Source: Oceanospirillaceae bacterium
GTDB taxonomy: Bacteria; Pseudomonadota; Gammaproteobacteria; Pseudomonadales; Litoribrevibacteraceae
Length of the DNA stretch: 64,000 nt
Assembly: GCA_015665455.1 (NCBI GenBank)
Contig: JADFAD010000001.1
Location: 496,001 to 560,000 of the forward strand
Direction of reading: 5' to 3'
The notes below the pieces were generated by a model, which was not told the DNA's origin, ran no database searches, and saw only the letters and a list, made by a program, of their open reading frames with translations. The translations under genes and the position numbers were made by a program. Of the stretch, positions 1 to 45,375 are shown in pieces; positions within the stretch are counted from its first letter, which is position 1, and every line of letters starts with the position of its first letter.

Positions 1-10
1 TCGTGGGCAA

Positions 11-3737: not shown

Positions 3738-4827
3738 AACTGTTTAAGACTCGCTCTCTTTCTTCTTTCGGTTGTTTGGAGAGCAATGCGACGGATTCAT
3801 AGAACGCTGGGAAATTTGAGTCGCAAGCTAGAATCCACAGTTTAAAAGCAGGAACCCATTGACTGTACGTGTTTACTAAAGCGAGACGAGCGTTATTAAT
3901 TGGTTTTGAAAACCAATGGTCGTAACCTTTATAGTCGTCCCAATGTTTGATCTTTAGTTCGTTGTAGGCTTGTTTTAATTTATCTATGGCCACTTGTTTC
4001 TGGCGAAGTTTCTCGGCCTGATGGATGTCGCTGCTATAAATAGCCTCCAGATCGGCTCGACCATTTTCAAGGAGTTTTAAAAAGTCTTCTGATCTTTTTT
4101 GGCGAACCTTATAGGTCTTCAATTTATTTGGTTGATTCTTTAGCCACAATTCGACGCCTGCATCTTCAACCGCAGATGCAAAGCTTTCATTAAAGGTGCT
4201 GTCGCCTTTGAGATATAATACTTGATGCGCTAATTCATGAAACAGTAATGCATGTAGACCTATTTCGTCTCTGCGAAAAAAGGTAGAGAGTACTGGGTCA
4301 TCAAACCAGCCAAGTGTTGAGTAAGCATCGGCTCCTCCAACGTGGGTATCCATGTTGCCTTCTTGTTGTATTTTGAGTGCATAGTTTTCAGCATCCTGCT
4401 TAGCGTAGTACCCTCGATATGATGCACACCCGACAAATGGGTAGCACCATTGCCTTGGCGACAATGAATCATTTGGCGTAGCGACGACACTCCATATAGG
4501 ATATTTGCCGTCCAATTGAACAAAGCTTCGGTAGCTGGATAATGCTTGTGGCATACCAAGATTGTGTTCAGCAAATTTTAGTGCAGAATTCACTTCGTGG
4601 AGCCTATGCTTCAGCTTTGTTTCGGTCTCTGGCGCATCAATCAATTCTTGTATGTTTTCTTGCTTGGACATGATGGAAAGGTGACCCTTCACTGCTTGTC
4701 CGTAATATCCAATTTGTTCACATCCTTGTAGAAACACGACGCATATTGTTAAAACAGGAAGAGTAATTGCTCTAAATGCCAACCGGTTCGAAATTTCTGA
4801 AAATTGTCCAAGTCTTGATCGAATCAT
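3670..4827 (-). CDS. Predicted lipoprotein aminopeptidase (PF10023-type)
   Basis: Predicted zinc aminopeptidase anchored as a lipoprotein. The frame is open up to 4926, but the start is placed at ATG 4827 because it directly begins a lipoprotein signal: basic residues, a hydrophobic stretch, then the lipobox VVFLQGC. The metal-binding motif HELAH occurs about residue 195, followed by NESFASAVE, where the glutamate is the probable third ligand. This arrangement is characteristic of the uncharacterised aminopeptidase family PF10023. It is divergent from the acyl-CoA reductase gene and overlaps the lipase gene end-to-end by 68 bases. The natural substrate is not known. Confidence 0.85.
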   Translation of the reverse strand: MIRSRLGQFSEISNRLAFRAITLPVLTICVVFLQGCEQIGYYGQAVKGHLSIMSKQENIQELIDAPETETKLKHRLHEVNSALKFAEHNLGMPQALSSYRSFVQLDGKYPIWSVVATPNDSLSPRQWCYPFVGCASYRGYYAKQDAENYALKIQQEGNMDTHVGGADAYSTLGWFDDPVLSTFFRRDEIGLHALLFHELAHQVLYLKGDSTFNESFASAVEDAGVELWLKNQPNKLKTYKVRQKRSEDFLKLLENGRADLEAIYSSDIHQAEKLRQKQVAIDKLKQAYNELKIKHWDDYKGYDHWFSKPINNARLALVNTYSQWVPAFKLWILACDSNFPAFYESVALLSKQPKEERERVLNSFNQAASYREDAALLLCKYSPSN

Positions 4828-4913
4828 AGGTTTGTTCTGTTTTTCTGTGGTGTATGGTGTTATGAAATCTAGTGATTTATTACTAACAATAAAAATAATA
4901 AAGGAGTTGCGAC

Positions 4914-6386: not shown

Positions 6387-6420
6387 CTGTTTATTCAGAA
6401 ATAGGAGTAAAGTACTGGAT

Positions 6421-6452
6421 ACTAAAAAAGGAGCTTAAGCTCCTTTTTTAGT
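6421..6452. terminator. Bidirectional intrinsic terminator
   Basis: A perfect palindrome centred on GGAGCTTAAGCTCC is flanked by an A-tract on one side and a T-tract on the other. It sits between the converging acyl-CoA reductase and arsM genes and can terminate both. Confidence 0.9.
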
Positions 6453-6463
6453 ATGGATGTTAC

Positions 6464-7516
6464 TTAGCAACAACCGCCGCCAGTATCTGTACTGATAACT
6501 TCTATGTCGTCGTAAGGTAAAGACGAACCGCAACCTTCAAAGATTCCGTAGTGTTTATCCCATGTGCCTAAAAACTCAAAGTGTTCTTTAAAGCGTGTGT
6601 CGTGAAGCATTTTCCATGTGTTGCCACATACAGGGAATACTTTTCCGGCTTCAATGAAGTGGTGTTTATCCAATTCAAACGCTTCTGGTTTTTCAGGTAT
6701 ATCGCCTTTGTAAATGACCGCTTGGCCGTAATCTTCACAAGCCGGCTCTAATTCAGGGAGTTTAAATAAACGATACGTTGCAGAGAAAAACTTAATGTTG
6801 CCCAGTTTTTGTTTGATTGCATTGTTGTTGATTGCCAGAGGCCTGTCTTCAACCAAGCGAGGGTCTAGGAAGCCGCATTTTTTAGCCAAGTTCTGGAAGT
6901 CGTTCCAGTATAACGCACCGCTTAGGCACTCACCGTAAAGCACTGGATCACTTAAAAGTTCTTTAGGAACTCGTTTATCCGAATAAACATCGGAGAAGTA
7001 AATCTCGCCACCTGGCTTGAGCAAATTGTAGGCTTGCTGAAGGACTGCTTCTTTGTCTTCACAAAGGTTGATGACGCAGTTGGAAACTATGATGTCGAAA
7101 CTGTTGGGTTCAAGACCTAAGTCTTCTAGGCTTTCTAAATACCCTTTTCTGAACTCAACATTTGATTTTGAGAATCCAAACTTATCGGCGTGAAAATCGA
7201 TGTGCTTATTGGCTACGTCGAGTTGTTCGTCGGTCATGTCTACGCCAACAACGTAGCCTTCTTCTCCAACCAATTGCGAGAGTACATAGCAATCACGACC
7301 TGAACCACTGCCCAGATCAAGAATGCGTGCGCCTTTTAATTTTTCAGGCGCGACTAGACCGCAACCATAATAGCGCGTTAAAACTTCATCATGAACCTTA
7401 CCAAGGGCTGTTTTGATATAGCGAGGTAGGTCTGTATCGGTACAGCATGCGTCGGTTTTTAGGTCATCACTGCTTTGCAGTGTTTTACCGTAATAATCTT
7501 GTACTTCCTGGCGCAT
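6464..7516 (-). CDS. arsM: Arsenite S-adenosylmethionine methyltransferase
   Basis: Methylates trivalent arsenic using SAM, a cytosolic detoxification step. SAM motif I is LDLGSGSGRD (about residues 67-76). The conserved ArsM cysteines are visible: the N-terminal DACC (about 23-24), SNCVINL in the middle, and FPVCGN towards the C terminus. The protein ends in GGGCC, an extra cysteine pair also seen in some ArsM proteins that may help bind As(III). The ATG has a GGAG about 7-9 bases upstream. No arsR, arsB or arsC gene is adjacent, so it is a stand-alone gene here, and no regulator site was recognised. Confidence 0.93.
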   Translation of the reverse strand: MRQEVQDYYGKTLQSSDDLKTDACCTDTDLPRYIKTALGKVHDEVLTRYYGCGLVAPEKLKGARILDLGSGSGRDCYVLSQLVGEEGYVVGVDMTDEQLDVANKHIDFHADKFGFSKSNVEFRKGYLESLEDLGLEPNSFDIIVSNCVINLCEDKEAVLQQAYNLLKPGGEIYFSDVYSDKRVPKELLSDPVLYGECLSGALYWNDFQNLAKKCGFLDPRLVEDRPLAINNNAIKQKLGNIKFFSATYRLFKLPELEPACEDYGQAVIYKGDIPEKPEAFELDKHHFIEAGKVFPVCGNTWKMLHDTRFKEHFEFLGTWDKHYGIFEGCGSSLPYDDIEVISTDTGGGCC

Positions 7517-7815
7517 TCAATACTCCGTAATAGGGATTAATTTAATAAGTCTTGGTGAGTTAGGACAACAGAACCGGTATTCGGTTCATTGGTTTACATG
7601 CCTTAACACCTTAATGTTTTTGAACAAGTCGCTTGGCTTAGGTAATATCTTCGTCATTTATAACAAAAATATCGATATATGAGTACTTTAGCTGCACTGG
7701 ATGCGTGTTATTTAGCTATATTTTAAAATTAATTTTAGTTATTCCGTTTATCTAGCCTGAATAGGGCGGTTATGTGCTCTGATTTGGTATGGGTTCTTAA
7801 TATGAAGGTTGTACT
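7517..7815. other. Intergenic region upstream of arsM and the sensor gene
   Basis: AT-rich 299-bp divergent spacer that must carry promoters for both flanking genes. I see no ORF, strong palindrome or recognised operator in it. Confidence 0.5.
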
Positions 7816-10800
7816 TTGACAGATTTTGCTTTTCCAAAAAGGGATGGGATCAGTTTTAAGACTTGGTGGGTTCCTTTGATTCTAAGTGCTGGGTTAATTC
7901 CTGTAAGCCAGTACTCACCCTTACTGTTTCATACATTAGTTGAATTTTTCTCCGTTACGATTGCGATCATTTCGCTTGTGGTTGCCTGGAATACATACTC
8001 TCTCTCGAAGAATCATTACTTGATGTGTTTGGGGTTGGGGTATTTCTGGGTTGGCATCTTGGATTTGGCGCATACGTTCACTTTCAAAGGTATGCCCTTT
8101 ATTAACCCTTTGGATGTGAATTCCACGATTAGTTTGTGGATTGTTACTCGCTACTTTGAAGCGGCTCTGCTTTTATCTGCGCCTTTCTTGTGTAATCGAA
8201 GTATCAATCGTGTTGCTTTCTTTATTGTCTTTGGTGTCATTAGTAGTTTCTTAATGTATTTAGTGGCTAAAGGCGCTTTCCCTGAGATGTTTTCGCCTAA
8301 AACAGGGCTCAGTGACATTAAAATTATTAATGAATGGATCATTATTTTAATTTTAATTGGCGCAGCTTGTTCGAACTATTATGCTCGGCAGATGCTGGAT
8401 AAACGAACGTTAGAACTGATTTTGATTTCTATTGGTTTAACGATTGCAGCAGAATTGATGTTTACCATGTACACCAATCTGTTCGGTTTAACGCTCATTG
8501 GTGGGCACTTTCTTAAGCTATTTTCATATTGGGCCATTTACATTGCATTGATTGAATCCAGCCTTAGAGAGCCCTTCAGAGCGTTGTCCCGTGGCGCAAA
8601 TACTTACGATGCAGTTCCTGATGAAACCGTTTTAGTTGATCGTGGCGGGATTGTTCGGCAAGTAAATAAAGCGGTTCGGCAGACGATGGGACTGACATCG
8701 TCCGATTGCATTGGGCGCAGTTGTCATAACTTACAGCACGCAAATAATGTTCATTCCAGTGATTGTGAAATTTGTTTGGCAATAAAAAGTAATCAGTCGA
8801 TTGAGAGTCACACCTTTTTTAATCCTGAGAATGAACAATGGTATGAGGTTACTTTAAGCCCGGTTTCTTATAACAATAGAAATGCAGGCATGGTGCATGT
8901 TCGCCGTAACATCACTGAGGCTAAAATCACTCAAGACCGATTTGTAACGTTGAATCGTCTGTATACGGTACTGAGTCATTCGAATAAAGCCATCATCGGT
9001 GCTGATTCACGTGAGGTCATGTTTCAACGGATTTGTGATATTGCCATTACTCATGGCGGCTTTTTAATGGCTTGGGTGGGGGTTATTCACGGCGACAGAG
9101 TATTGCCTCAATGTTCGGCAGGGGACGTTGATGGTTATCTGGAAGTCATGCGGATGATGATTGACGACTCTGATCTTGCAAATGGCCCCGTAGGGCGGTC
9201 GGCAAAATCAGGCGAGGTGAATTTTGTCAATGATACCGCCACAGACCCAACGTTTACGCCATGGAGAGAAGAAGCTCAGAAGCGAGGTTACCAAGCGTTA
9301 GTGGCTATACCGCTTAAGTTTAAAGGCGAAGTGTTCGGGATTTTTACCATTTATTCGACGTTACCGGATGTGTTTGATTCTCAAATGGTTGAACTGCTCA
9401 CAGGTTTGGGCATCGACTTAAGTCGTGCCATGTACATGATTGATAAAGAACAGCGTCGTTTGTCCATTGAGAAGAAACTTTATCAGCTGTCTCAAGCCGT
9501 TGAGCAAAGTGCTAACGCAATTATTATTACGGATATTGATGCGAAAATTGAGTATGTAAATCGGTCATTCACTCAATTAACGGGCTATACCTTAGAGGAT
9601 GCTTTGGGTGAAACCCCAAGCATGCTTCGAAGCGAGTTTACTGAGGAGGAGACGGTCAATGAGATCAAGAGTGCGTTGGCTGAAGGCCGTGAGTGGCATG
9701 GTAAAATTCAAAATCGACGTAAAGATGGCAGTGTCTATTGGTCACAGCAATCAATATTTATTGTTCGTGATGAGTTTGGTGAACCCATTCAATTTGTATC
9801 AACGTCGGATGACCATACGGAGCTGCATGAAGCTCAAGAAATGATTCAGCAGTTGGCGTTCTATGATCCTTTAACGCACTTGCCGAATCGTCGTTTATTA
9901 TCAGATCGATTTGAACAAGAAATAGGACGAATAGATCGAAATCCGAACTTGATTCTTGCCGTTATGGTTCTGGATTTAGACAACTTTAAAACCGTGAATG
10001 ATTCTTTGGGCCATAACGTGGGTGATAGCCTATTGAAGCACGTGGCTAGAGTACTGCAATCTTCAGTAAGGCAAGAGGATACAGTCGCTCGTTTGGGTGG
10101 TGATGAGTTTGCGATCATCATGAGTGGTGCGAAAGTGGGTCGCGTTGTGGATGTATCGGACCGCATCATTCGCGCATTTTCTGAGCCCCTTGAGATTGAT
10201 GGCAATAAAATTACCTATGGCGCAAGCATTGGCATCGCGATGTATCCGCAAGATGCTGAGGATACAGATACGTTGTTAAGAAATGCTGATTTGGCGATGT
10301 ACCATGCAAAATCAGAAGGTAAGAATAACTTCCAGTTTTATCGCGAAGACTTAAATGTAAAAGCACATGATCGTCTGTCGCTGGAAAATAAGATTCGAAG
10401 TGCCATTGAAAATGAGCATTTTCAACTGTTCTATCAGCCTCAAGTTGATGTCCGTACTGGCGAAATGATTGGCTTGGAAGCACTTATTCGCTGGATTGAT
10501 CCAGAGAAAGGCATCATACCGCCTATGGAGTTTATCCCGTTGGCTGAAGACACGGGGATGATAGGTAAAATTGGTGACTGGGTTATCCAGAAGGCCTGTG
10601 AAGAAGTGGGTTTGATGCACAAGCAGGGGTTGCCCAATGTCAAAGTTGCAGTGAATGTTTCGGCGCATCAATTCAGGCACGGAGATCATCTCTGTAATAC
10701 CATTGAAAATGCGCTGAAAGAATACGAACTGCCGTCCGAATTTCTTTCTCTTGAGTTAACCGAAAGTATTTTAATTGAGGATATTGAAGACACCATTCGA

Positions 10801-11154
10801 TCGTTAAACCAGTTGAAAGGCTTAAATATAACCTTGGCAATTGATGACTTTGGCACTGGGTATTCTTCGTTAAGTTATTTGAAAACATTCCCGATTGACG
10901 TACTTAAAATCGACCAAACGTTCATTCGAGATATTTTAACGGACGAAAGTGATAAGGCCATCGTGACGGCCATAATTGCAATGTCTAATCAGTTGGGGCT
11001 AGGTGTCTTGGCTGAAGGTGTTGAAACACAAGCGCATAATGACTTCTTGATCGATAAGGGCTGTAACTTTGCTCAAGGTTATTTCTATTGCAAGCCAAAA
11101 CCCATGAATGAGTTACTTGAATTCTGGCTAAATAAAGAAAAGGTGCCGAATTAG
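7816..11154 (+). CDS. MASE3-PAS-GAF-PAS-GGDEF-EAL cyclic-di-GMP signalling protein
   Basis: Membrane sensor that may make and/or degrade c-di-GMP. Residues about 1-250 form several membrane helices with the MASE3 signature FWVGILDLAHTFTFKGM. Then come a PAS domain (about 270-370) containing a CxxC-like pair of cysteines, a GAF domain (about 385-545), a second PAS (about 556-675), GGDEF (about 690-850, motif RLGGDEF near 761) and EAL (about 860-1105, motif EALIRW near 887, with DDFGTGYSSL). Both catalytic signatures are intact, so either activity is possible. The start is TTG at 7816, because the ATG at 7802 runs into a stop. Stand-alone gene; signal unknown. Confidence 0.93.
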   Translation: MTDFAFPKRDGISFKTWWVPLILSAGLIPVSQYSPLLFHTLVEFFSVTIAIISLVVAWNTYSLSKNHYLMCLGLGYFWVGILDLAHTFTFKGMPFINPLDVNSTISLWIVTRYFEAALLLSAPFLCNRSINRVAFFIVFGVISSFLMYLVAKGAFPEMFSPKTGLSDIKIINEWIIILILIGAACSNYYARQMLDKRTLELILISIGLTIAAELMFTMYTNLFGLTLIGGHFLKLFSYWAIYIALIESSLREPFRALSRGANTYDAVPDETVLVDRGGIVRQVNKAVRQTMGLTSSDCIGRSCHNLQHANNVHSSDCEICLAIKSNQSIESHTFFNPENEQWYEVTLSPVSYNNRNAGMVHVRRNITEAKITQDRFVTLNRLYTVLSHSNKAIIGADSREVMFQRICDIAITHGGFLMAWVGVIHGDRVLPQCSAGDVDGYLEVMRMMIDDSDLANGPVGRSAKSGEVNFVNDTATDPTFTPWREEAQKRGYQALVAIPLKFKGEVFGIFTIYSTLPDVFDSQMVELLTGLGIDLSRAMYMIDKEQRRLSIEKKLYQLSQAVEQSANAIIITDIDAKIEYVNRSFTQLTGYTLEDALGETPSMLRSEFTEEETVNEIKSALAEGREWHGKIQNRRKDGSVYWSQQSIFIVRDEFGEPIQFVSTSDDHTELHEAQEMIQQLAFYDPLTHLPNRRLLSDRFEQEIGRIDRNPNLILAVMVLDLDNFKTVNDSLGHNVGDSLLKHVARVLQSSVRQEDTVARLGGDEFAIIMSGAKVGRVVDVSDRIIRAFSEPLEIDGNKITYGASIGIAMYPQDAEDTDTLLRNADLAMYHAKSEGKNNFQFYREDLNVKAHDRLSLENKIRSAIENEHFQLFYQPQVDVRTGEMIGLEALIRWIDPEKGIIPPMEFIPLAEDTGMIGKIGDWVIQKACEEVGLMHKQGLPNVKVAVNVSAHQFRHGDHLCNTIENALKEYELPSEFLSLELTESILIEDIEDTIRSLNQLKGLNITLAIDDFGTGYSSLSYLKTFPIDVLKIDQTFIRDILTDESDKAIVTAIIAMSNQLGLGVLAEGVETQAHNDFLIDKGCNFAQGYFYCKPKPMNELLEFWLNKEKVPN

Positions 11155-11161
11155 GCACCTT
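11140..11161. terminator. Hairpin overlapping the stop codon of the c-di-GMP gene
   Basis: AAGGTGCC and GGCACCTT form an 8-bp stem with a 6-base loop. The TAG stop codon straddles the loop and right arm. The T-run after it is short, so termination is plausible but not certain. Confidence 0.55.
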
Positions 11162-11237
11162 AAATTATTACTTGAGTTTGTTTCGATGTATTAATTCAGA
11201 TGTATTAGTTTGGTTGTGTTAACTAGGATGTATGAGT

Positions 11238-11960
11238 TCAGATCTTTGGGATTTTCAAATCCGTTAAATTGATTTTATTGGGTTTGTAATCGTTTACTTT
11301 GTCTTCGGTTGGGTAACCCAATGCCAATCCGCAAACTAGCTTGTAATCTTTTGGAATTTTAAAGTGCTTATCGATAGGGGAACGCCAGATTCCCAATGCA
11401 CCTTGAGCACATGTCCCTAGACCTTTATTGGTTGCAGATAGCATGAGTGACTGCATGAAAATGCCTGCATCCAGCAACGCCGTATGTGTCATTCCTGGAT
11501 GAATAAAGACAAAGATAGCTACGGGTGCATCAAAGAAAGTGAAGTTTCTTGCCATCTGCTCATCTCGTGCTTTCTTGTCACTCCGTTCAATGCCTAAAAC
11601 CTTATAAAGACCTGCGCCTGTTGCTATTCTTCGCTCTTGAAATAGAGGAGGGTATTTACCAAGGATAGGTTTGAAATCGCTGTCAGGTAAGGCATCGCTC
11701 GTAATCGCTGAAAGCACTTTTAGCGGCAGTGGCTGTTTTTGGATCTTATTGGACGCGTTATATTTAGACAGTAACTCACTGCCTATTTTTTGGCAGACAT
11801 CCCCCGTGGCAATGGCTAGCTTATAAGGCTGAGTGTTGGAGCTGGAAGGTGACTCCAATGCTTCTTGTAGAATTTCATCAAGGACATCGCTTTCAACTTC
11901 TTTGTCAGAAAAAGCTCGTATGCTTCGTCGGCCATTCAGTACTTTTAGGAAATCCATCAT
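11238..11960 (-). CDS. Nitroreductase-family FMN oxidoreductase
   Basis: Predicted FMN-dependent NAD(P)H oxidoreductase of the nitroreductase superfamily. The N-terminal RRSIRAF motif (about residues 11-17) and the SPSSSNTQPYKL block (about 38-49) bind FMN phosphate and ribityl groups; LGTCAQGAL and the C-terminal GLALGYP are also typical. At 240 residues the length is normal. Two ATG codons are adjacent (11960 and 11957); the AGGA upstream is better spaced for the second. The gene is single, with a 7-bp repeat tract just upstream of its start. Natural substrate unknown. Confidence 0.9.
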   Translation of the reverse strand: MMDFLKVLNGRRSIRAFSDKEVESDVLDEILQEALESPSSSNTQPYKLAIATGDVCQKIGSELLSKYNASNKIQKQPLPLKVLSAITSDALPDSDFKPILGKYPPLFQERRIATGAGLYKVLGIERSDKKARDEQMARNFTFFDAPVAIFVFIHPGMTHTALLDAGIFMQSLMLSATNKGLGTCAQGALGIWRSPIDKHFKIPKDYKLVCGLALGYPTEDKVNDYKPNKINLTDLKIPKI

Positions 11961-11980
11961 CTGATCCTTTTGTGCGCTTT

Positions 11981-12002
11981 TATTATTTATTATTTATTAT
12001 TT
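11981..12002. repeat. Three-copy 7-bp tandem repeat upstream of the nitroreductase
   Basis: TATTATT is repeated three times head to tail about 20-40 bases upstream of the nitroreductase start. It is short and AT-rich, so it may be low-complexity promoter sequence rather than a phase-variable tract. Confidence 0.5.
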
Positions 12003-12226
12003 GCCTGTCGTTAGATCGATTGTCTGATTAAGACGATTGATATGTCAACTAAATTCTAATATGAGTTAGTAATCATGTCTTTAGGTGTGCTTTTGAGATC
12101 TGTGTCAAAAAACTGTCAAGATGTAGGTTAAATATTAGCGATTGTGAGTGATTAGGTAGGGGACTCTATTTGGCTTTGTTATAGTCGGCTCCATTGCTGA
12201 TATGGCTTTGGTAGGAACCAACGACA

Positions 12227-12841
12227 ATGGAATTAGTGGAAACTAAAACAAAAAGAACTCGCCTTGATCCAGAAAAGAGACACGCCCAATTACTTAATTG
12301 CGCGGTGGTTGCATTTGCGAATAAAGGCATTGGTAGAGCAGTTCATGCGGACGTAGCAGAACTTGCAGGTGTGTCGGTTCCAACGGTATTTAACTACTTT
12401 AGAACACGCGAAGATCTCGTCGATGCTGTACTAACGGAAGTTGAACGTTACTTTCTTGAGGTGGCTAATGCAGCTCATGGTGGTGGTTTTGATGCCATTG
12501 ATGCGTTGCATGAGCATGGTAATTATTTTGTAACAGCGGCCGTAGACCATCAGGAATATGTCAAAGTCTGGCTCGAATGGACTTCTTCGTTACGTGATGA
12601 TGTTTGGCCAAGGTATTTGTTATTGCATAATCGGGTGATTAGTCAGATTGCCCGCTCTATTCAACGCGGTATTGATAAAGGTGACGTTACTGTCAATCTT
12701 ACTGCCCGAGAACTGGCTATGATTTTTATGGGCAGTGCTCATACAGTGGCCATGATGGTGTATGCTCCGGAAAACACCGCTGATGGCATTCGTGCTTTCA
12801 TGCATCGTGCAGTGACGGTTTTGTTAGGTAAGCCACTCTAA
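12227..12841 (+). CDS. TetR-family regulator resembling HapR/LuxR/SmcR
   Basis: DNA-binding regulator of 204 residues. The N-terminal helix-turn-helix (about residues 30-70) contains GIGRAVHADVAELAGVSV followed by TVFNYFRTREDLVDAV. From memory these are almost the same as the Vibrio quorum-sensing master regulator HapR. The ligand-domain stretch KVWLEWTSSLRDDVWP also matches HapR's KVWFEWSASTRDEVWP. Most TetR proteins do not share that second block. It precedes the molybdenum hydroxylase genes by about 300 bp on the same strand, so it could regulate them, itself, or distant targets. Family assignment strong; a link to cell-density signalling is inference. Confidence 0.9.
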   Translation: MELVETKTKRTRLDPEKRHAQLLNCAVVAFANKGIGRAVHADVAELAGVSVPTVFNYFRTREDLVDAVLTEVERYFLEVANAAHGGGFDAIDALHEHGNYFVTAAVDHQEYVKVWLEWTSSLRDDVWPRYLLLHNRVISQIARSIQRGIDKGDVTVNLTARELAMIFMGSAHTVAMMVYAPENTADGIRAFMHRAVTVLLGKPL

Positions 12842-12848
12842 TTATTTC

Positions 12849-12880
12849 CTACGTGCGTATTAGCTATTTCTACGTGCGTA
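12849..12880. repeat. Direct repeat pair downstream of the TetR gene
   Basis: CTACGTGCGTA occurs twice, at 12849-12859 and 12870-12880, with a 21-base period. This equals two helical turns, as expected for paired protein-binding sites. The role is unknown. Confidence 0.4.
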
Positions 12881-13076
12881 AGTATTTATGATTGACGCTA
12901 GAAATCCCCATAAAGTCAGCTTTTCCTTCGACTAGGTCGAGCTGATTTTATTCACTTGAAACCCCGTTATTCCTTTTTTTTGGTACGTAATTTACATTGC
13001 AAGGCCACTTTACGGACCTTTCACATCAAAACTATTCATCCAAGTGTGAATATTAATCAGTTTAAATTTGTTAATT

Positions 13077-13090
13077 AGAGTTTAAACTCT
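13077..13090. promoter_or_regulatory. Palindromic candidate operator before the molybdenum hydroxylase genes
   Basis: AGAGTTTAAACTCT is a perfect 14-bp palindrome about 48 bases upstream of the Fe-S subunit start. Its size and place suit a TetR-type operator, and a TetR gene lies just upstream. It does not resemble the longer HapR consensus, so assignment to that regulator is inference. Confidence 0.4.
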
Positions 13091-13137
13091 ACTGACAATA
13101 ACAATAGCTCGATTAGTTTGTTCGTGAGAGAGAAGAT

Positions 13138-13659
13138 ATGATTGAATTTCGTGTGAACGGTAATGTTCAGCAAGTCGATGTTGAAGGGGATACTCCATTA
13201 CTTTGGGTTTTACGTGATGTTATCGCGTTAACCGGAACTAAGTTCGGATGCGGTATGGGTTTATGTGGCGCTTGTACTGTGCAGTTGAATGGCCAGCCGA
13301 TACGCGCTTGTATAACCCCCGTTTCTGCTATTACCGGTCAAGAAATTACAACGATTGAAGGGCTTGGGAGCATAAAAGATATTCATCCGGTACAACAAGC
13401 TTGGATCGATGAAAACGTACCTCAATGTGGCTATTGCCAGTCTGGCCAAATCATGTCGGCTTCGGCACTGTTGGCTCAAAACCCTAATCCATCCGATGAT
13501 GAAATTAAACAGTACATGTCTGGCAATATTTGTCGATGTGGCACTTATCCTAGAATTCAAAAAGCCATTAAGCGGGCTGCAAAATCTCTTCAAACAACAG
13601 GGTTTGCAGTTCACATTCAAGAATCGAACTTTGATCTGGCTACGGAGGTTCAGTCATGA
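13138..13659 (+). CDS. [2Fe-2S] small subunit of a molybdenum hydroxylase (IorA/CoxS type)
   Basis: Electron-transfer subunit for the following molybdenum enzyme. The N-terminal plant-type ferredoxin motif [13 protein letters not shown] (about residues 39-51) binds one [2Fe-2S] cluster. The C-terminal CGYCQSGQ and [12 protein letters not shown] binds the second, as in the xanthine oxidase family. At 173 residues it is normal in length with a slightly long tail. The ATG at 13138 follows a GAGAG tract. It overlaps the large-subunit gene by 4 bases (ATGA), which indicates translational coupling. No FAD-subunit gene is present, as in isoquinoline 1-oxidoreductase-like enzymes. Confidence 0.95.
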
Positions 13660-15863
13660 GTGATTTAACCTTATCTCGCCGCCAATTTTTTAAAATGTCT
13701 GCGGCGGCAAGCGGTGGCTTAGTGCTAGCGTCTGGTATCAGTGCATGCATGACTCAGACTCATTCTTCTGGGAACGAAGACTTATGGAAAGCGAATGCTT
13801 GGGTCACTTTGCACCCTGACGGACGAATTGAATTTGTATTAGATCGTGTCGAAATGGGGCAGGGGACATTAACCGGTTTAACAACGCTACTTGCAGAAGA
13901 AATGGACGTTAAACCCGAGTTGATTGAGATTAAGTTTGCACCTGCAGACCCCACTTATCGTAATCCTGATTACGGCCTACAGATTACTGGGGGCAGTAAC
14001 AGCTTGTCTTCAAGCTGGGAACAAATTCGAGAGTCTGGCGCCGTTATCCGCACCGTGATGAAACAAGCGGCTTCAAGGGTATGGAAGGTTGAACCATCAG
14101 AATGTGTGACTTCTGACAGCCAAGTTATGCACCCGCCCACCAATCAAGCGTTAAAGTATTCAGATCTTTATAAACTAGCAATTAATGAACGCATACCTAA
14201 TGACATTGAGCTTAAAGATCCTTCTGAATTTAAGTTGATTGGTAAGCACAATCAGCGTTTGGATGCACCGTTGAAATCTACTGGCGCTGCAAACTTTGGT
14301 ATCGATACCCAAATTGAGGGTATGGCTTATGCCGTGGTTGCCCGCAGTCCTGTCATTGGTGGAAAAGTGAAGCACTTCGATCCGTCATCGGTTATGGCCA
14401 TGACGGGGGTAAAGCAGGTGGTTCAGATTACGTCTGGGGTGGCTGTCGTTGCAGAACAGTATTGGCAAGCACGAAAAGCGTTAAATGCTTTAGCCATTGA
14501 ATGGAATGAAGGGCAAAATGCATCGTTATCTACAGACCGTGTTTTTGAACTCTATAAAAAAGCGGCGGATGACGATGAGGGTGATAAGCGTCGAGATGAT
14601 GGTGATATTGATGAAGCATTAGCAACGGCGGCTAAAATTGTTGATGTTGAATATCAAGCGCCATTTTTGGCTCACGCAACCATGGAACCTCAAAACTGTG
14701 TGGCTCATGTTCAGGAAGATCGTTGTGATGTCTGGGCACCGACCCAAGGGCCTGATGTTGCACAAGTTGCAGTAGCGAAAGTGACAGACCTATCGTTGGA
14801 TCAAATTTTTATTCATACAACGTTTATTGGTGGTGGCTTTGGTCGACGATTAACCCAAGATTTCACTGCAGAAGCTGCTGAAATTTCAGCTAAAACGAAG
14901 TTGCCAATAAAACTGATTTGGTCTCGAGAAGATGATACCAAACATGATCTATATCGACCTGCGTCTTATCATCGTTTAAAAGCGGGGCTTTCAAAAGACG
15001 GCCAGCTTATTGGTTGGCAGCACCAAATCGTGTGCTCTAAAATTTTAAGTTGGTACGTATGGGATGCGGCTCCAGCGCAGTTCCCATGGGCGCCGAAGTT
15101 TATGTACAACACGCTAGCGAACGTGGGGTTAGCCGGTGAAGGCGTGGTTGCTCCGGAGGATCATTCGCCGTTTGAAGGGGCAGACTCCTACCCTTACTCT
15201 GTGGCCAATATTGATGTGCGTTATACCCATGCGGATGCAGGTGTTCCTGTTACTTATTGGCGTTCGGTGGGGCATTCACAAAATGCTTTTGTGGTCGAAG
15301 GCTTCATGAACGAAATGGCCCATGCTGCAGAGCAAGATCCATACACCTTTAAGCGAGCGTTATTAAAAGACATACCGCAAGCGTTAGCGGTGCTTGATCA
15401 AGTGGCAAAGTCAGCTAACTGGGGTAACCCTAAAGCGGGTAGGCATCAAGGCTTAGCCATTCATAAAAGCTTCGGAACTTGGGTTGCTCAAGTCGTGGAA
15501 GTGAGCTTGAATGGAAACCAATATCAGGTTGAGAAAGTATACTGTGTCGTGGATTGTGGTTTAGCCGTTAACCCCGATGTTGTTCATTCTCAGATGGAAA
15601 GTGGTGTTGTCTTCGCTTTGACTGCTGCTAAATATGGGCAGATTGATATTGAAGATGGAAAAGTAAGGCAGAGTAACTTCCATGATTACCAGATGCTACG
15701 CATGAATGAATGCCCTGAGATCATTGTTGATATTATTCCAAGTGCAAATGCGCCTACTGGCGTAGGTGAACCCGGCGTTCCGCCTTTGGCACCCGCGTTG
15801 GCTGATGCTCTGTTCTCAGCCACAGGACAAAGACTTCGTTCATTGCCATTGACTTTAAACTAA
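13656..15863 (+). CDS. Molybdopterin-binding large subunit, Tat-exported (IorB/aldehyde dehydrogenase type)
   Basis: Catalytic subunit of a two-subunit molybdenum hydroxylase. The N terminus carries a twin-arginine signal (SRRQFFK, residues 7-13, followed by a small-residue hydrophobic core), so the complex is probably periplasmic or membrane-attached. The molybdopterin motif GGGFGRR lies about residue 391, and the active-site glutamate is in GVGEPGVPP near 703. The 735 residues are typical of the IorB group. With no FAD subunit, electrons probably pass to a cytochrome or quinone, but no cytochrome gene is adjacent. Substrate (aldehyde or N-heterocycle) cannot be read from sequence. Confidence 0.93.
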
Positions 15864-33491: not shown

Positions 33492-34346
33492 TCAAGCTTT
33501 CGATGTTTTTCGTTCTCGCCACCAATTCGCCAGTTTCGTTCCTTGTACAAAAAATTGTTTGTATTTAGAAGGCAGAATTCGTTGGAAGATATCCATGGCG
33601 TAGGCATCAGGTCCGATTAATGCTCGCTCTTTATTCTTAAGAACTGCACTCAGTATGGCATTTGCTGCATCTTCTGCTGTGGTATGTGCGTACTTATCAA
33701 AACTGTCTCGGAGTTCATCTGCATGATAGGCATCAGGGGTATTGCCCATACGTCCATTTGCTGCAATGTTTGTTTTGATGCCACTAGGGAAGACACAGGT
33801 GCATTGAACATGAGACTCTTCAATACGAAGTTCTTCTTGCAGTGACTCAGTGAACCCTCTTACCGCGAACTTGGCTGCGTTATAGGCCGATTGCGTCGGA
33901 ACTGCATATAAGCCGAAGACACTGGATACATTTACAATGTGAGCGTCAGTGCTTTGCTTTAAATGAGGGAGGAATGCTTTCGTTCCGTAGACGACACCCC
34001 AAAAGTTAATGTTCATCAACCATTCGAAGTTTTTGTAGCTCATTTGATCAACGGTTTCTGCAAGAGCAACCCCTGCGTTGTTGATCACGAGGTTAATGCC
34101 TTTGTGTTGTTTCATCACGTTGGTGGCGAAGTTTTCTACGGCATTACGATTGGATACATCCAAAACGTGTTGTGAGATTTGAACGCCGGTATGCGCTAAA
34201 CGGTCGGCTACTTTTTGAAGGTCTTTTTCATTGATGTCTGCTAGGGCTAAATTACACCCTTTTCTAGCTAATGTTTCTGCTAAAGCAGCGCCAATTCCTG
34301 ATGCTGCACCTGTGATTGCAGCCACTTTGTTTTTAAAGTTTTCCAT
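33492..34346 (-). CDS. Short-chain dehydrogenase/reductase (intact copy)
   Basis: NAD(P)-dependent oxidoreductase, 284 residues. The nucleotide-binding TGAASGIG is at about residues 14-21, the NNAG motif near 90, the catalytic serine in VNVSSVFG (about 141-142) and the YNAAK active site near 156-160. Classic SDR with a C-terminal extension typical of the ~280-residue group. Its first 142 codons are repeated downstream at 39416-39841 as a broken fragment, and the two stretches differ by ten synonymous changes. It is divergent from the chemoreceptor gene. Substrate unknown. Confidence 0.92.
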   Translation of the reverse strand: MENFKNKVAAITGAASGIGAALAETLARKGCNLALADINEKDLQKVADRLAHTGVQISQHVLDVSNRNAVENFATNVMKQHKGINLVINNAGVALAETVDQMSYKNFEWLMNINFWGVVYGTKAFLPHLKQSTDAHIVNVSSVFGLYAVPTQSAYNAAKFAVRGFTESLQEELRIEESHVQCTCVFPSGIKTNIAANGRMGNTPDAYHADELRDSFDKYAHTTAEDAANAILSAVLKNKERALIGPDAYAMDIFQRILPSKYKQFFVQGTKLANWWRERKTSKA

Positions 34347-34448
34347 AATTACCTAAATATATTCAAGAAACTGCCGAATTAAAGAGTAAGTTGATATAAA
34401 GATACTAGACTAACCTTACATGGGTTCACAGTTTTATAGGGGTTGTTT

Positions 34449-36264: not shown

Positions 36265-36693
36265 TTAGTAGGAATAGACGACCTTTACAGACCCATCCAC
36301 CTCGCTTGCATCAATATAGCCAATGGTTGAAGGGTTTGAAGAAATTAATTCCTTAACCTCTGCAGACGAACCTACCTGCTTCGGTGGTGTGCCCTTGCCT
36401 GTAAAAATCCGTTTGGACCAGTAAGATTTCACCTGACTGGCGGACTTGCCCATGACAGAACTTAAAAACCCATTTCTAATGTCCGCTGAGTCACTCTGAT
36501 CGATCGGAATGACGGTAGACCCGCCAGGAAATTTCTTGGTTTTACCTAAATACATACGGCTAATTACTGAAGCATCAAGGGACGCGCTAGGGTTGTCAGG
36601 ATGAACAATCACCGCTGTGTCCGCTTGAGCTGTGGGCGTTAAAATAGCCGTTGTTAGTAATGAGGTAAGAAGAATCTTTTTGAAATGTCTCAT
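36265..36693 (-). CDS. Small periplasmic-binding-like (PstS-related) protein, type A, copy 1
   Basis: 142-residue exported protein with a signal peptide (cleavage about AQA-D, residue 24). The body resembles a single lobe of PstS-type phosphate-binding proteins (PBP superfamily): the VSRMYLGKTKKFPGG-like start, IPIDQSDSADIRNGF, then GTPPKQVGSSAEV and GYIDASEVDG. Half the usual size, so it may not bind ligand alone. It follows porin A by 12 bases on the same strand and has a well-placed AAGGGG. The strict pairing with a porin suggests joint action at the outer membrane, an inference. Identical protein at 41760. Confidence 0.85.
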   Translation of the reverse strand: MRHFKKILLTSLLTTAILTPTAQADTAVIVHPDNPSASLDASVISRMYLGKTKKFPGGSTVIPIDQSDSADIRNGFLSSVMGKSASQVKSYWSKRIFTGKGTPPKQVGSSAEVKELISSNPSTIGYIDASEVDGSVKVVYSY

Positions 36694-36705
36694 GGTCGAA
36701 TCCCC

Positions 36706-37788
36706 TTAGAAAATCATATCTACAGCAGCGCTGTATAGAAAACCGTCTTCACCATCAGCAGCTGAACGTGTTTTTTCATCACGATACTGTGCCTCAATTT
36801 TAAGCGCTACATTGGTTTCAATGTCGTACCTAAGCCCTGCAATGTAACTGGCGTATTCATTTTCTAAACCAGCAGCTTGTTGGAGTAGGCCTGTGGTGCC
36901 TGATTCCACATCGTCTTCTTCATATGCATAGGTTAAGTGTGGTGTAAATTGGTCCATTCTGCGAGCGTAGTGAATTAAATAGGCAATGTCGTCAGTTAAC
37001 GAAGCGGTATCATGATCAAGCGCGGTCAGCTCAATGACCACTTGGTTGTCACCGTCATCGTAGATAAATGCACTTTCCATAAAGGTAGTGACATCATCGT
37101 CTACGATAAAATCGTCGTTCAATGCCGCTGCGGTTGCGCTGAGGCTGGTTGAACTAAGGGCTGCGCGATGGTAGCTGAGCCTAAGTGCAAACGGGTCCAT
37201 CGATGCATTAAATACAACCCCTGCAAACTGAGTTAAATCAAAGTCATAATCTGTACCACCAATGGTGAGGTCTTCATTAAACCGACCGTAATAAAGTTGG
37301 ACGCTTGCATCGATGTCACCAAAATACAATTGATGAGTTACATCGACGCCGTCAATGGAGGAGAAACCAATGCGATAGACTTCGGTTGGAGGGCGAATCC
37401 AATTGTAGGCATAACCGACTTCAAGAAAATCAGAATAGTAGAAGAAAGGTGCACGTAAACGGCCAAATCGTACGGATGTCTCGTCACTGTGTTCATAGGT
37501 GGCGTAAGCCCAAGCGGCTTCCATATCAAAGTCGTCTGAACCTCTGGCAACCAATTGGCCTGTCAGTGAAAACTTACCTTGAATGTGCTTACTGACTTGT
37601 AAGCCGAGAACCGTATCCTGCTTAAACCCAGGGTCTTCATCGTAACCGTTGACTGCAATTTCATCAGTCGACAGTGCGCCAACCCCAGCACTTAGAAATC
37701 CATTGATCGTTAGGTCATCATCAGCCACAACATTACTGCTTGAAACGGCGAGAATAGCCAACATCAAGGGTGTTATTCGAGTTTTCAT
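36706..37788 (-). CDS. Outer-membrane porin-like protein, type A, copy 1
   Basis: 360-residue beta-barrel candidate with a signal peptide (cleavage about VVA-DD, residue 22) and a C-terminal phenylalanine (VDMIF), the usual BAM recognition signal. Many alternating strands; conserved block FGRLRAPFFYYSDFLEVGY followed by WIRPPTEVYR and SSIDGVD is shared with the type B porin nearby. First gene of a two-gene minus-strand operon with the small binding-like protein. AAGGGAA lies about 8 bases before the ATG. Its substrate is unknown. Identical copy at 42201. Confidence 0.87.
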   Translation of the reverse strand: MKTRITPLMLAILAVSSSNVVADDDLTINGFLSAGVGALSTDEIAVNGYDEDPGFKQDTVLGLQVSKHIQGKFSLTGQLVARGSDDFDMEAAWAYATYEHSDETSVRFGRLRAPFFYYSDFLEVGYAYNWIRPPTEVYRIGFSSIDGVDVTHQLYFGDIDASVQLYYGRFNEDLTIGGTDYDFDLTQFAGVVFNASMDPFALRLSYHRAALSSTSLSATAAALNDDFIVDDDVTTFMESAFIYDDGDNQVVIELTALDHDTASLTDDIAYLIHYARRMDQFTPHLTYAYEEDDVESGTTGLLQQAAGLENEYASYIAGLRYDIETNVALKIEAQYRDEKTRSAADGEDGFLYSAAVDMIF

Positions 37789-39457: not shown

Positions 39458-39841
39458 ATGAGGGAGGAATGCTTTCGTTCCGTAGACGACGCCCCAAAAG
39501 TTAATGTTCATTAACCATTCGAAGTTCTTGTAGCTCATTTGATCAACGGTTTCTGCCAGAGCAACCCCTGCGTTGTTGATCACGAGGTTAATGCCTTTGT
39601 GTTGTTTCATCACGTTGGTGGCGAAGTTTTCTACGGCATTACGATTGGAGACATCCAGAACGTGTTGAGAGATTTGAACGCCGGTATGCGCTAAACGGTC
39701 GGCCACTTTTTGAAGGTCTTTTTCATTGATGTCTGCTAGGGCTAAATTACACCCTTTTCTAGCTAATGTTTCTGCTAATGCAGCGCCAATTCCTGATGCT
39801 GCACCTGTGATTGCAGCCACTTTGTTTTTAAAGTTTTCCAT
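39416..39841 (-). pseudogene. 5' fragment of the SDR gene
   Basis: First 142 codons of the SDR at 33492-34346, with identical amino acids but ten silent base changes (nine third positions and one TTG/CTG leucine). The fragment keeps the nucleotide-binding TGAASGIG and NNAG but lacks the YxxxK active site, so it cannot be a working enzyme. The frame runs on through antisense porin sequence to a stop at 39068, which would give a 257-residue hybrid. Its original start and upstream region are kept, so it may still be transcribed. Confidence 0.9.
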
Positions 39842-39943
39842 AATTACCTAAATATATTCAAGAAACTGCCGAATTAAAGAGTAAGTTGATATAAAGATAC
39901 TAGACTAACCTTACATGGGTTCACAGTTTTATAGGGGTTGTTT

Positions 39944-41557
39944 ATGACGTGGTTTTACAAGCTCAGCGTTAAAATTAAGATTTATTGCATTGCTGCAGCA
40001 GCCATTCTTGGGTTTATTGTATATTTTGTTTCTAACTACACCATGTCCTCCTCCCAAGGGCAACTGGTCGGTCAGATTCAAACTAAGACGTTCCCCTTAC
40101 TTCAAATTGCTGAACGATCCAAAGTTCGCCTCGAACGAATTCAGGAAATGTTAGCCAGTGCCGTTTCAGCGGATGAAATGGACATCCTGAACAACGCAGA
40201 TACGCAAAGATCTGAAATGCTGGATGATCTTAAGAAGGCCAGCGAGTTAGATCCCGAAGGATTAGCTAGCCAAGTGAGTTCATCATTCTCTGACTACTAT
40301 GGTATTGCGCACAGTATTTCAAAGTCGATGCTGGATGGTAGTGCAGATTTTTCGTCGTTGGGCTCTAAAACAGAGAAAATGACCGCTGCACTAGGAAATA
40401 CCTCTGAGTTGTTAGAACAGTTTCGAGAAGAGAATAACAATACGTTTAACAATACAGTGATAGAAGCCAAAGCATTAAGTGACAAGATGCTGATTAATGG
40501 TATTACCATTGGCGCCATCATGTTCTTCTTCATTTTTGTGATTTCAGTGATTGTTTCAAGAACAATATGCCGCAGCATTGAAGAGGTCGTTCGCTCGTTA
40601 AAAGACATTGCGCAAGACAACGGTGACTTAACGGTACGTCTTGAAACGAGAGCGGAAGATGAAATCGGTGAATTGGTTTATTGGTTCAATGAATTTGTTG
40701 CTAAGTTACGCGGTGTTATTGGTAAAGTTGTTAATGCGGCAGGGCCGTTGGATGATTTATCCGGACAGTTAAACAATCTTATGGATCATGTGAACTCTAA
40801 TATCGAGTCTCAGCGTCTATCAGCAGAAACATCGAAAGACGCTGTGGATCGAATGCAAGAAAGTATGGATTCCATCGTTAGTGACGCCAGCGCGGCTGTA
40901 GACTGTGCGCAAGACGCAAACAGCGAAGCCGACCAAGGGCAATCCATTGTTGGCCAAACGGTTGATGCGATTAAGACGCTTTCAGGTGGCGTATCTGAGG
41001 CGGCAGAAGTGATTCGAAAGTTGGAATCCGACACCGATCAAGTCCGTTCTGTTTTGAGTGTCATTAAAGGCATTGCGGATCAAACGAATTTGTTGGCATT
41101 GAATGCGGCGATTGAGGCGGCTCGTGCAGGTGAGCAAGGCCGAGGGTTTGCGGTTGTAGCAGATGAAGTTCGATCATTAGCTTCAAAGACTCAGGAGTCG
41201 ACCGAAGAAATTAACGTCACTATTAATACTTTGATCTCTGCGTCTCAAGAAGCCGTGACGGTAATGGAAAAAGGAACAGAACAAGCTCAAACCAGTGTTT
41301 CTAACTCTGAACAAGCGGGAGAGTCGTTGGTTAAGATTTCAGAAGTCGTGTCTTCAATTCATGAAATGAATAATCGTATTTCAGATGCGGTTTCGAGCCA
41401 ACAGCGAGTGTCGAGTGAAATCGTTACTTCCGTGGGTGATATTTTAACTCAGACCCAAGAGACTGCGAATAAGTCAGCTTCTCTGGGTTCATTAGCGAAT
41501 GAGCTTAATGAAGTAGCGAGTGAGATGGCACAGATAACTCAGCAATTTAAAATTTAA
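39944..41557 (+). CDS. Methyl-accepting chemotaxis protein (copy 2)
   Basis: Same 537-residue protein as at 34449, with the same upstream 96 bases, RBS and ATG. Two membrane helices, a helical periplasmic sensor, HAMP and a full signalling domain. The absence of any seen difference over 1.6 kb indicates a very recent duplication. Its upstream neighbour here is the SDR fragment instead of the intact SDR gene. Two copies would raise the dose of this receptor. Confidence 0.95.
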
Positions 41558-41759: not shown

Positions 41760-42188
41760 TTAGTAGGAATAGACGACCTTTACAGACCCATCCACCTCGC
41801 TTGCATCAATATAGCCAATGGTTGAAGGGTTTGAAGAAATTAATTCCTTAACCTCTGCAGACGAACCTACCTGCTTCGGTGGTGTGCCCTTGCCTGTAAA
41901 AATCCGTTTGGACCAGTAAGATTTCACCTGACTGGCGGACTTGCCCATGACAGAACTTAAAAACCCATTTCTAATGTCCGCTGAGTCACTCTGATCGATC
42001 GGAATGACGGTAGACCCGCCAGGAAATTTCTTGGTTTTACCTAAATACATACGGCTAATTACTGAAGCATCAAGGGACGCGCTAGGGTTGTCAGGATGAA
42101 CAATCACCGCTGTGTCCGCTTGAGCTGTGGGCGTTAAAATAGCCGTTGTTAGTAATGAGGTAAGAAGAATCTTTTTGAAATGTCTCAT
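41760..42188 (-). CDS. Small periplasmic-binding-like protein, type A, copy 2
   Basis: Identical 142-residue product to that at 36265. Signal peptide and one PstS-like lobe. It follows porin A copy 2 by 12 bases in the same operon arrangement. Both copies look functional. Confidence 0.85.
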   Translation of the reverse strand: MRHFKKILLTSLLTTAILTPTAQADTAVIVHPDNPSASLDASVISRMYLGKTKKFPGGSTVIPIDQSDSADIRNGFLSSVMGKSASQVKSYWSKRIFTGKGTPPKQVGSSAEVKELISSNPSTIGYIDASEVDGSVKVVYSY

Positions 42189-42200
42189 GGTCGAATCCCC

Positions 42201-43283
42201 TTAGAAAATCATATCTACAGCAGCGCTGTATAGAAAACCGTCTTCACCATCAGCAGCTGAACGTGTTTTTTCATCACGATACTGTGCCTCAATTTTAAGC
42301 GCTACATTGGTTTCAATGTCGTACCTAAGCCCTGCAATGTAACTGGCGTATTCATTTTCTAAACCAGCAGCTTGTTGGAGTAGGCCTGTGGTGCCTGATT
42401 CCACATCGTCTTCTTCATATGCATAGGTTAAGTGTGGTGTAAATTGGTCCATTCTGCGAGCGTAGTGAATTAAATAGGCAATGTCGTCAGTTAACGAAGC
42501 GGTATCATGATCAAGCGCGGTCAGCTCAATGACCACTTGGTTGTCACCGTCATCGTAGATAAATGCACTTTCCATAAAGGTAGTGACATCATCGTCTACG
42601 ATAAAATCGTCGTTCAATGCCGCTGCGGTTGCGCTGAGGCTGGTTGAACTAAGGGCTGCGCGATGGTAGCTGAGCCTAAGTGCAAACGGGTCCATCGATG
42701 CATTAAATACAACCCCTGCAAACTGAGTTAAATCAAAGTCATAATCTGTACCACCAATGGTGAGGTCTTCATTAAACCGACCGTAATAAAGTTGGACGCT
42801 TGCATCGATGTCACCAAAATACAATTGATGAGTTACATCGACGCCGTCAATGGAGGAGAAACCAATGCGATAGACTTCGGTTGGAGGGCGAATCCAATTG
42901 TAGGCATAACCGACTTCAAGAAAATCAGAATAGTAGAAGAAAGGTGCACGTAAACGGCCAAATCGTACGGATGTCTCGTCACTGTGTTCATAGGTGGCGT
43001 AAGCCCAAGCGGCTTCCATATCAAAGTCGTCTGAACCTCTGGCAACCAATTGGCCTGTCAGTGAAAACTTACCTTGAATGTGCTTACTGACTTGTAAGCC
43101 GAGAACCGTATCCTGCTTAAACCCAGGGTCTTCATCGTAACCGTTGACTGCAATTTCATCAGTCGACAGTGCGCCAACCCCAGCACTTAGAAATCCATTG
43201 ATCGTTAGGTCATCATCAGCCACAACATTACTGCTTGAAACGGCGAGAATAGCCAACATCAAGGGTGTTATTCGAGTTTTCAT
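42201..43283 (-). CDS. Outer-membrane porin-like protein, type A, copy 2
   Basis: Identical 360-residue product to that at 36706, with intact signal peptide, the RLRAPFFYYS and WIRPPTEVYR blocks, and terminal phenylalanine. The upstream spacer is also unchanged, so regulation should be the same for both copies. Confidence 0.87.
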   Translation of the reverse strand: MKTRITPLMLAILAVSSSNVVADDDLTINGFLSAGVGALSTDEIAVNGYDEDPGFKQDTVLGLQVSKHIQGKFSLTGQLVARGSDDFDMEAAWAYATYEHSDETSVRFGRLRAPFFYYSDFLEVGYAYNWIRPPTEVYRIGFSSIDGVDVTHQLYFGDIDASVQLYYGRFNEDLTIGGTDYDFDLTQFAGVVFNASMDPFALRLSYHRAALSSTSLSATAAALNDDFIVDDDVTTFMESAFIYDDGDNQVVIELTALDHDTASLTDDIAYLIHYARRMDQFTPHLTYAYEEDDVESGTTGLLQQAAGLENEYASYIAGLRYDIETNVALKIEAQYRDEKTRSAADGEDGFLYSAAVDMIF

Positions 43284-43803: not shown

Positions 43804-44955
43804 ATGCGGTTGAAGTCGCAAGCGTTAGCGATCGCAATATCAACGGTAGGGTTAGTGAATCCTGCAATGGCAGTGGAGTTAGACTTTAACGGGTTTATTT
43901 CTGTGGGTGGCGGTATTTCATCCAACGATGAGTTGAACTTAGATGTGGATTATGGAGAAGACGTTTCTTTTGACGAAGACTCCATCCTAGGGATTCAAAC
44001 GACGGCTGCAATTAACGAAAAGATGTCTTTAACTGCACAGCTTGTTGCTCGAGGAAAAGACGATTACGACCTTGAAGCGGAGTGGGCGTTTGTTTCTTAT
44101 GAAATGAACGATGAAACTTTTGGTCGTGCGGGTCGTTTACGTGTGCCTTTCTTTGCTTACTCTGAATCCATTGATGTTGGCTATTCTTACCACTGGATTC
44201 GTCCGCCATCAGAAGTGTATCGCTTGCCGTTTTCCTCCATTGATGGGGTTGATGCAAACTACACCACGTGGTTAACGGATGATTGGGAGCTTTCTACACA
44301 GGCTTATTTCGGCACTTACAGTGATGAGGTGGATGTCTTTGGTGAAGAAAGTGAGCTGGATCTTAAAAATGGTACCGGTCTTGTTTTCACCGCGAACTAC
44401 GATTGGCTAACGCTTCGAAGCAGTGTTCACTTTGCGACGGTAACCGTGACCAATGATTCCATTAATACGCTTAATAGTGCGTTAACAGGCGCTGGTTTTG
44501 GCAGCGTAGCAGATGACATCGCCGTTGATGAAAACGATGTATTGTTTTACGAAGCGGCGATCTTAGCGGATTATGAAGATTACATCTTTGTGGCTGAGTG
44601 GACGATGCTGGATTATGACCGCAGTGCGATACCTGATGATACGGGTTGGATGATTTCTGTAGGTAAGCGCATTGGTGAGTTCACACCGCATTTGACCTTT
44701 GCTAAGGAAGAAGACGACGGTGAAACGGGGTTCTCTGATCCGATTCCTTCGGGCGTAAGTCCTGCCTTGGATGCGTTGAAAGGTACTGTGGACGCTCTTG
44801 AATCTGAAGCGCTTCAAGAAAGCTGGATTGCAGGTGTTCGTTGGGATGTAATGCCGTCGGCTGCGTTGAAGTTTGAAGCGCAATATACGGATCGTAAACA
44901 ACCCGAAGACGATGACACTATGATTTATAGTGTTGTTCTAGACGCTGTATTTTAG
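43804..44955 (+). CDS. Outer-membrane porin-like protein, type B (native C terminus)
   Basis: 383-residue porin with signal peptide (cleavage about residue 23) and native tail ending MIYSVVLDAVF. It is a clear paralogue of type A: both share RLRxPFFxYS, WIRPPxEVYR and SSIDGVD. The final 15 codons lie beyond the repeat and are unique. It is followed 9 bases later by its partner small binding-like gene, so this is the complete original operon. The type A and B operons face away from each other, an inverted paralogous arrangement older than the tandem duplication. Confidence 0.88.
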   Translation: MRLKSQALAIAISTVGLVNPAMAVELDFNGFISVGGGISSNDELNLDVDYGEDVSFDEDSILGIQTTAAINEKMSLTAQLVARGKDDYDLEAEWAFVSYEMNDETFGRAGRLRVPFFAYSESIDVGYSYHWIRPPSEVYRLPFSSIDGVDANYTTWLTDDWELSTQAYFGTYSDEVDVFGEESELDLKNGTGLVFTANYDWLTLRSSVHFATVTVTNDSINTLNSALTGAGFGSVADDIAVDENDVLFYEAAILADYEDYIFVAEWTMLDYDRSAIPDDTGWMISVGKRIGEFTPHLTFAKEEDDGETGFSDPIPSGVSPALDALKGTVDALESEALQESWIAGVRWDVMPSAALKFEAQYTDRKQPEDDDTMIYSVVLDAVF

Positions 44956-44964
44956 GAGAGCCAT

Positions 44965-45375
44965 ATGAAATTTATTTACGTAATGTTGCTTTCATTCGTT
45001 ACATCGTTGGCCCTAGCGGGGACTTCAGTCATTATTAATCCTGCAGACGCAGGTGCGGGTTTATCTCAAAGTGATGCGAAAAAGGTATTTCTTGGTAAAA
45101 AGAAATCTTTACCCTCTGGTGCCAAAGCTCAACCGGTTGATCAGTCTGCAGGGGCTGCTATTCGTGGTGCGTTCTTAGAAACCGTTGTCGGTAAGTCAGA
45201 AAGCCAATATAAGTCTTTTTGGGCTAAGAAAGTATTTACAGGCAAAGGTAAGCCGCCACCAGAAAAGGGAACGGATGCGGATGTTAAAGCATTCGTTGCA
45301 AGCACGCCTGGTGCTGTGGGGTACATCGATAGTTCAAGCGTTGATGGCACCGTAACGGAAGCGTTCGCTTTTTAA
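44965..45375 (+). CDS. Small periplasmic-binding-like (PstS-related) protein, type B
   Basis: 136-residue exported protein, signal peptide ending about ALA-GT (residue 19). Paralogue of the type A protein: VFLGKKKSLPSGAKAQPVDQS, FTGKGKPPPEKGTDADVKAF and GYIDSSSVDG align directly. AGGAGAGCC lies just before the ATG, 9 bases after porin B. It lies outside the repeat, so it is the only copy, while porin B exists twice. Role unknown; the pairing with a porin is the main clue. Confidence 0.85.
   Translation: MKFIYVMLLSFVTSLALAGTSVIINPADAGAGLSQSDAKKVFLGKKKSLPSGAKAQPVDQSAGAAIRGAFLETVVGKSESQYKSFWAKKVFTGKGKPPPEKGTDADVKAFVASTPGAVGYIDSSSVDGTVTEAFAF

Follow-up and report, generated by a model that had tools for sequence, protein, structure and literature searches.

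Two adjacent copies of a 5.5-kb stretch are identical in this genome except at one end, where ten differences fall within part of a short-chain dehydrogenase (SDR) gene. The question that this locus raises is how two alleles of one gene came to stand side by side on a single contig. A self-comparison of the window (the whole 64-kb stretch of DNA that was analysed) at an offset of 5,495 revealed a direct tandem duplication, whose unit comprises the 5′ part of the SDR gene, a chemotaxis receptor gene, a gene encoding a small PstS-like protein, a porin gene, and most of a second porin-like gene (Table 1). The intact SDR gene is present only in copy 1, and the intact second porin-like gene only in copy 2; the SDR fragment retained in copy 2 lacks the C-terminal half of the enzyme. 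When the junction sequences were compared, the sequence CCGAAGAC, with G or C at five of its eight bases, was found at the novel junction and also at both original ends (33913-33920 and 44903-44910). Head-to-tail copies that share a short sequence between the junction and both original ends are characteristic of a microhomology-mediated tandem duplication, and from this we infer that the duplication arose by illegitimate recombination at these 8 bp. In a genome from another genus of the same family (G001), the neighbouring genes are single, keep their order and show no duplication, indicating that the duplication is derived, so far as one relative can show. A mobile element was also considered as the cause and rejected, since no transposase or phage protein was detected among the proteins from the unit and its neighbours that were scanned (nine with Pfam, seven with NCBIfam).

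Table 1. Coordinates of the features of the duplicated locus, given as positions in the window.
Feature	Start	End	Strand	Remarks
Tandem duplication, copy 1	33913	39415	.	5,503 bp; run of identity at offset 5,495
Tandem duplication, copy 2	39408	44910	.	Identity at offset 5,495
Microhomology at the novel junction	39408	39415	.	8 bp, CCGAAGAC
Intact SDR gene	33492	34346	-	284 aa; Pfam adh_short, E 4e-50
Truncated SDR	39068	39841	-	Gene start to base 434 (144 codons plus two bases), continuing into antisense porin sequence; 257-aa ORF
Diverged tract, allele A	33933	34284	.	Ten silent differences, in the intact SDR gene
Diverged tract, allele B	39428	39779	.	Same ten sites, in the truncated SDR fragment adjoining the junction
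Putative recombination endpoint	34285	34395	.	Copy 2 equivalent 39780-39890
Methyl-accepting chemotaxis protein, copy 1	34443	36062	+	Copy 2 at 39938-41557, identical
PstS-like small protein, copy 1	36265	36693	-	Copy 2 at 41760-42188
Porin (Pfam Porin_4), copy 1	36706	37788	-	Copy 2 at 42201-43283
Second porin-like gene, copy 1	38309	39457	+	Junction fusion, 382 aa
Second porin-like gene, copy 2	43804	44955	+	Intact, 383 aa

A sequence-only reading of this DNA had listed ten sites that differ from their partners 5,495 bases downstream, all of them silent, next to about 5.1 kb free of differences. Our comparison returned exactly these mismatches (33933, 33996, 34017, 34032, 34062, 34155, 34163, 34173, 34209 and 34284) and no other. 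Nine are third-codon positions and one is a first-position TTG/CTG leucine, so that all ten are indeed silent; by hand count they comprise six transitions and four transversions. Scattered divergence was looked for in the remaining 5,131 bp of the repeat, and 0 mismatches were found, whereas 138 would be expected at the rate of the tract. The probability that ten uniformly distributed sites fall within a span of 352 bp or less is approximately 1.7e-10, and the probability that ten changes with this transition/transversion composition are all silent in an unconstrained copy is approximately 9e-7. Across codons 21 to 144, ten changes in 78.7 silent sites correspond to a silent divergence of 0.127 observed and 0.139 corrected. 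Assuming that mutation after the duplication proceeded at equal rates in both copies, about 19 non-silent changes would be expected in the truncated fragment, and none was observed (P ~8e-9). The clustering and the missing non-silent changes argue strongly against divergence by mutation after the duplication and indicate that each allele evolved in a working SDR gene before recombination brought the two together. The core inference of the sequence-only reading, that one allele evolved in a working gene elsewhere, is thereby supported.

The tract occupies the left end of the repeat unit, adjoining the novel junction in copy 2 and unique DNA in copy 1, and no divergence is seen at the opposite, right-hand end. 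Mosaic genes are the product of homologous recombination that imports DNA between strains. The present tract resembles such imports in being short and several percent diverged, with an abrupt end in an otherwise identical background, and in carrying silent changes only, both parents being working genes. The abrupt edge is visible on the right side, given that the left end of the tract falls outside the repeat, and the silence of ten out of ten differences indicates that both alleles were under purifying selection before they met. Unlike the imports usually described, this one can be seen within one genome, because the young tandem duplicate supplies a reference for comparison. At a density of ten differences in 372 bp, the endpoint has 95% of its weight within 111 bp to the right of the last difference, most likely around the beginning of the SDR gene and the spacer that separates it from the chemotaxis gene.

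We consider it likely that two alleles with separate working-gene histories are present in real DNA of the chromosome, by whichever of two routes they came together. The route that we favour, by a modest degree of confidence, is a duplication followed by a homologous import into copy 1, its mirror image included. Illegitimate recombination at the 8 bp would have made the duplication, and DNA from a relative (with a silent divergence of ~0.13-0.14 per site) would then have been imported homologously into copy 1, replacing the DNA from some point in the unique sequence to the left of 33913 up to ~34285-34395, while the fragment in copy 2 would keep the older allele. In the mirror image, the segment bearing the duplication would have been imported, with the left crossover at the same place. 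In favour of an import, ten of ten differences, all silent, lie in the terminal 372 of 5,503 bp, and the tract extends as far as the repeat boundary, where incoming DNA with its anchor in the unique sequence would enter. Both ComEC and DprA are encoded in this genome, above the curated cut-offs, which makes the uptake and integration of foreign DNA plausible, albeit weakly, since these families also score in 12 and 10 of 14 control genomes, E. coli included. Import relies on a common process, yet it requires a second event in a duplication that looks young, as judged by the lack of any difference in 5,131 bp. A separate later import into such a duplication would be a coincidence, and this favours a single step as the alternative. 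The weights that we give to import, to a single step and to an artefact are matters of judgement and were not computed.

Regarding the age of the duplication, the consulted part of one study, which quotes other work, gives a typical loss of tandem duplications without selection of 0.01-0.15 per cell per generation, with one value of 0.003 (PMC4432121). Taken together with the zero differences in 5,131 bp, these rates point to a duplication that is either recent or selected.

As an alternative that we regard as unlikely, the DNA of a diverged relative could itself have made the duplication, in which case allele B would be donor DNA. A homologous crossover just upstream of the SDR gene, to the right of the tract, would have been accompanied at the other end by a joint at the 8 bp, through which the broken end of the donor DNA would be connected to the porin gene on the sister chromosome. 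Allele B would then adjoin the novel junction by necessity, and divergence is in fact found only at the junction end of the repeat; the geometry of allele B, from 39408 to ~39780-39890, appears to fit such an event. A single event would replace two, with no other difference having accumulated since then, and the 8-bp microhomology, in which 5/8 bases are G or C, would provide the joint. ComEC and DprA add potential at most. Against this, events that pair homologously at one end and join illegitimately at the other are rare relative to homologous import. Moreover, G001 does not mark allele B as foreign: of the ten sites it shares one with A and three with B and matches neither allele at the remaining six, being only 75% identical.

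A partial precedent for a duplication made by donor DNA exists in Streptococcus pneumoniae, where, in the consulted part of the report on merodiploidy by alternative pairing, transformation generates tandem duplications because donor DNA can bridge sister chromatids through long repeats, leaving the copies separated by a hybrid repeat (PMC3784515). In that system, however, the repeats are long (IS861 copies) and the duplications extend over ~100-900 kb, whereas here the junction has 8 bp and the unit 5.5 kb (PMC3784515).

Comparison with other genomes bears on which allele is the foreign one. A search of 56 genomes gave 11 with a match, the source genome included, the best of the others being G001 with 75% identity; at the family level the search covered two genomes (the source and G001), and at the genus level the source alone. 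A scan of genome contigs confirmed 304 of 314 stretches, and the best amino-acid identity among the top 80 loci was 59%, in a collection from which records very near the source genome may be left out. Viral contigs searched with the SDR and the first porin yielded no confirmed relative, and the matches in plasmids (4 records) and phages (2 records) were only 67.9-70.3% identical over 15-19% of the query. Third-position identity of the SDR gene to G001 falls from 0.60 at the 5′ end to 0.33-0.47 in the 3′ half, and GC3 is 0.43 in the repeat part of allele A, 0.465 in allele B and 0.355 in the unique 3′ half of the SDR gene. Neither measure shows a clear step at the edge of the duplication. Both were set aside, since they drift without such a step; the third positions are also near saturation. 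Codon usage, compared with ten genes of the window, gave a log-ratio sum of 1.27 towards A, too weak to be used.

An assembly artefact seems to us improbable. In that case a contig put together from the reads of two strains, or with a chimeric read, would show two alleles and a spurious junction. A mixture of strains would indeed bring together two alleles that each evolved in a working gene, and the length of the microhomology also deserves caution. In the consulted part of a study of Salmonella, 5/8 tested duplication junctions were verified, all with at least 11 bp of microhomology, while junctions of 7 and 9 bp, and one of 17 bp, failed verification (PMC3411829). The 8 bp found here fall below the verified range, and by this pattern an 8-bp junction alone is no proof of a real event, although the same part of the study indicates that junctions from 7-9 bp upwards are already commoner than in simulated chimeric reads (PMC3411829). 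A mixture of strains should also scatter differences over the whole 5.5 kb and not at the junction end alone. The assembly (4.85 Mb in 17 contigs) has a completeness of 100 and a contamination of 0.46, and among the matches found it contains no near-identical second copy of the 38,891 bp of flanking DNA, a search that left out window positions 1-13999. The flank of 19,901 bp gave 28 matches, 27 of them non-self, with 40 of 58 first-look candidates scored, and the flank of 18,990 bp gave 5, of which 4 were non-self; the non-self matches had identities of 64-83% and did not exceed 374 bp. By inference, the present order would also be the only path through the assembly graph with these pieces. 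The sequence-only reading had offered three explanations, namely overwriting of the intact gene by DNA from a relative after the duplication, a duplication that joined two diverged chromosomes, and an assembly of two mixed strains. This list still holds, with its third member weakened by the absence of second flank copies.

Mutation after the duplication is very improbable, whether it is attributed to weakened selection on a dead fragment, to a shower of mutations where the breakpoint lies, or to gene conversion that homogenised everything except the repeat end. The differences do adjoin the breakpoint, where error-prone repair could act, but all ten are silent (9e-7 for an unconstrained copy), the ~19 expected non-silent changes are missing from the truncated fragment and the right end of the repeat lacks divergence; the shower in particular was rejected, since an error burst would not pick silent sites.

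With its 5.5-kb unit and 8-bp junction, the locus is otherwise like a spontaneous microhomology-mediated tandem duplication, and 9-bp microhomology borders have been used to direct tandem duplications in bacteria, according to the consulted part of one report (PMC11111574). It differs from an ordinary spontaneous duplication, in which the copies are identical at the start, by its diverged end. Among the literature matches listed, neither the titles nor the opening lines of the abstracts describe a tandem duplicate with a diverged tract at its end. As a tandem duplicate with one mosaic end, the locus provides a clean natural marker for the endpoint of recombination, and it is of a kind already known; the duplicate acts as an internal reference that exposes the endpoint in a single genome without strain collections. 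If donor DNA made the duplication in one step, the allele stranded at the junction would be a natural record of homology-facilitated illegitimate recombination producing a tandem duplication. One could then search for young tandem duplicates whose junction-side end is diverged, as a signature of this process, and screening junctions across genomes could be used to ask how often incoming DNA, and not replication slippage, causes duplication. If that reading is wrong, the locus is one more mosaic gene.

The junction also altered the second porin-like gene, for which no match was found in Pfam or NCBIfam and whose label rests on its own sequence and on 127 bp of DNA that match the first porin (75% identity, opposite strands). 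The gene in copy 1 has lost its last 14 codons and reads instead through 13 codons of antisense SDR. The new tail is hydrophobic at positions -1, -3, -5 and -7, like the C-terminus of the intact gene, but it ends with Leu instead of Phe and has His instead of Tyr at -9. Site 39428 is the only allele difference within this tail, encoding His with allele B, where allele A at the junction would have given Tyr. By a test devised after the tail had been seen, 9 of the 855 start positions in the antisense SDR stretch yield a tail of 8-20 aa that passes the strict version and 78 pass a looser one (4/5 positions); over the whole window (63,800 positions), the corresponding numbers are 801 and 2,457. 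These features are no more than a hint that assembly of the fusion porin may remain possible.

In G001, the chemotaxis gene and the second porin have neither the first porin nor its PstS-like neighbour (36265-37788) between them. Both small PstS-like proteins match TIGR02136 weakly and below the cut-off, the one listed in Table 1 with 19.6 bits against 206.6. The first porin and its PstS-like partner may represent a paralogous copy, older and inverted, of the pair formed by the second porin and its PstS-like gene (intact copy 43804-45375), and the locus may thus have had an earlier history of duplication.
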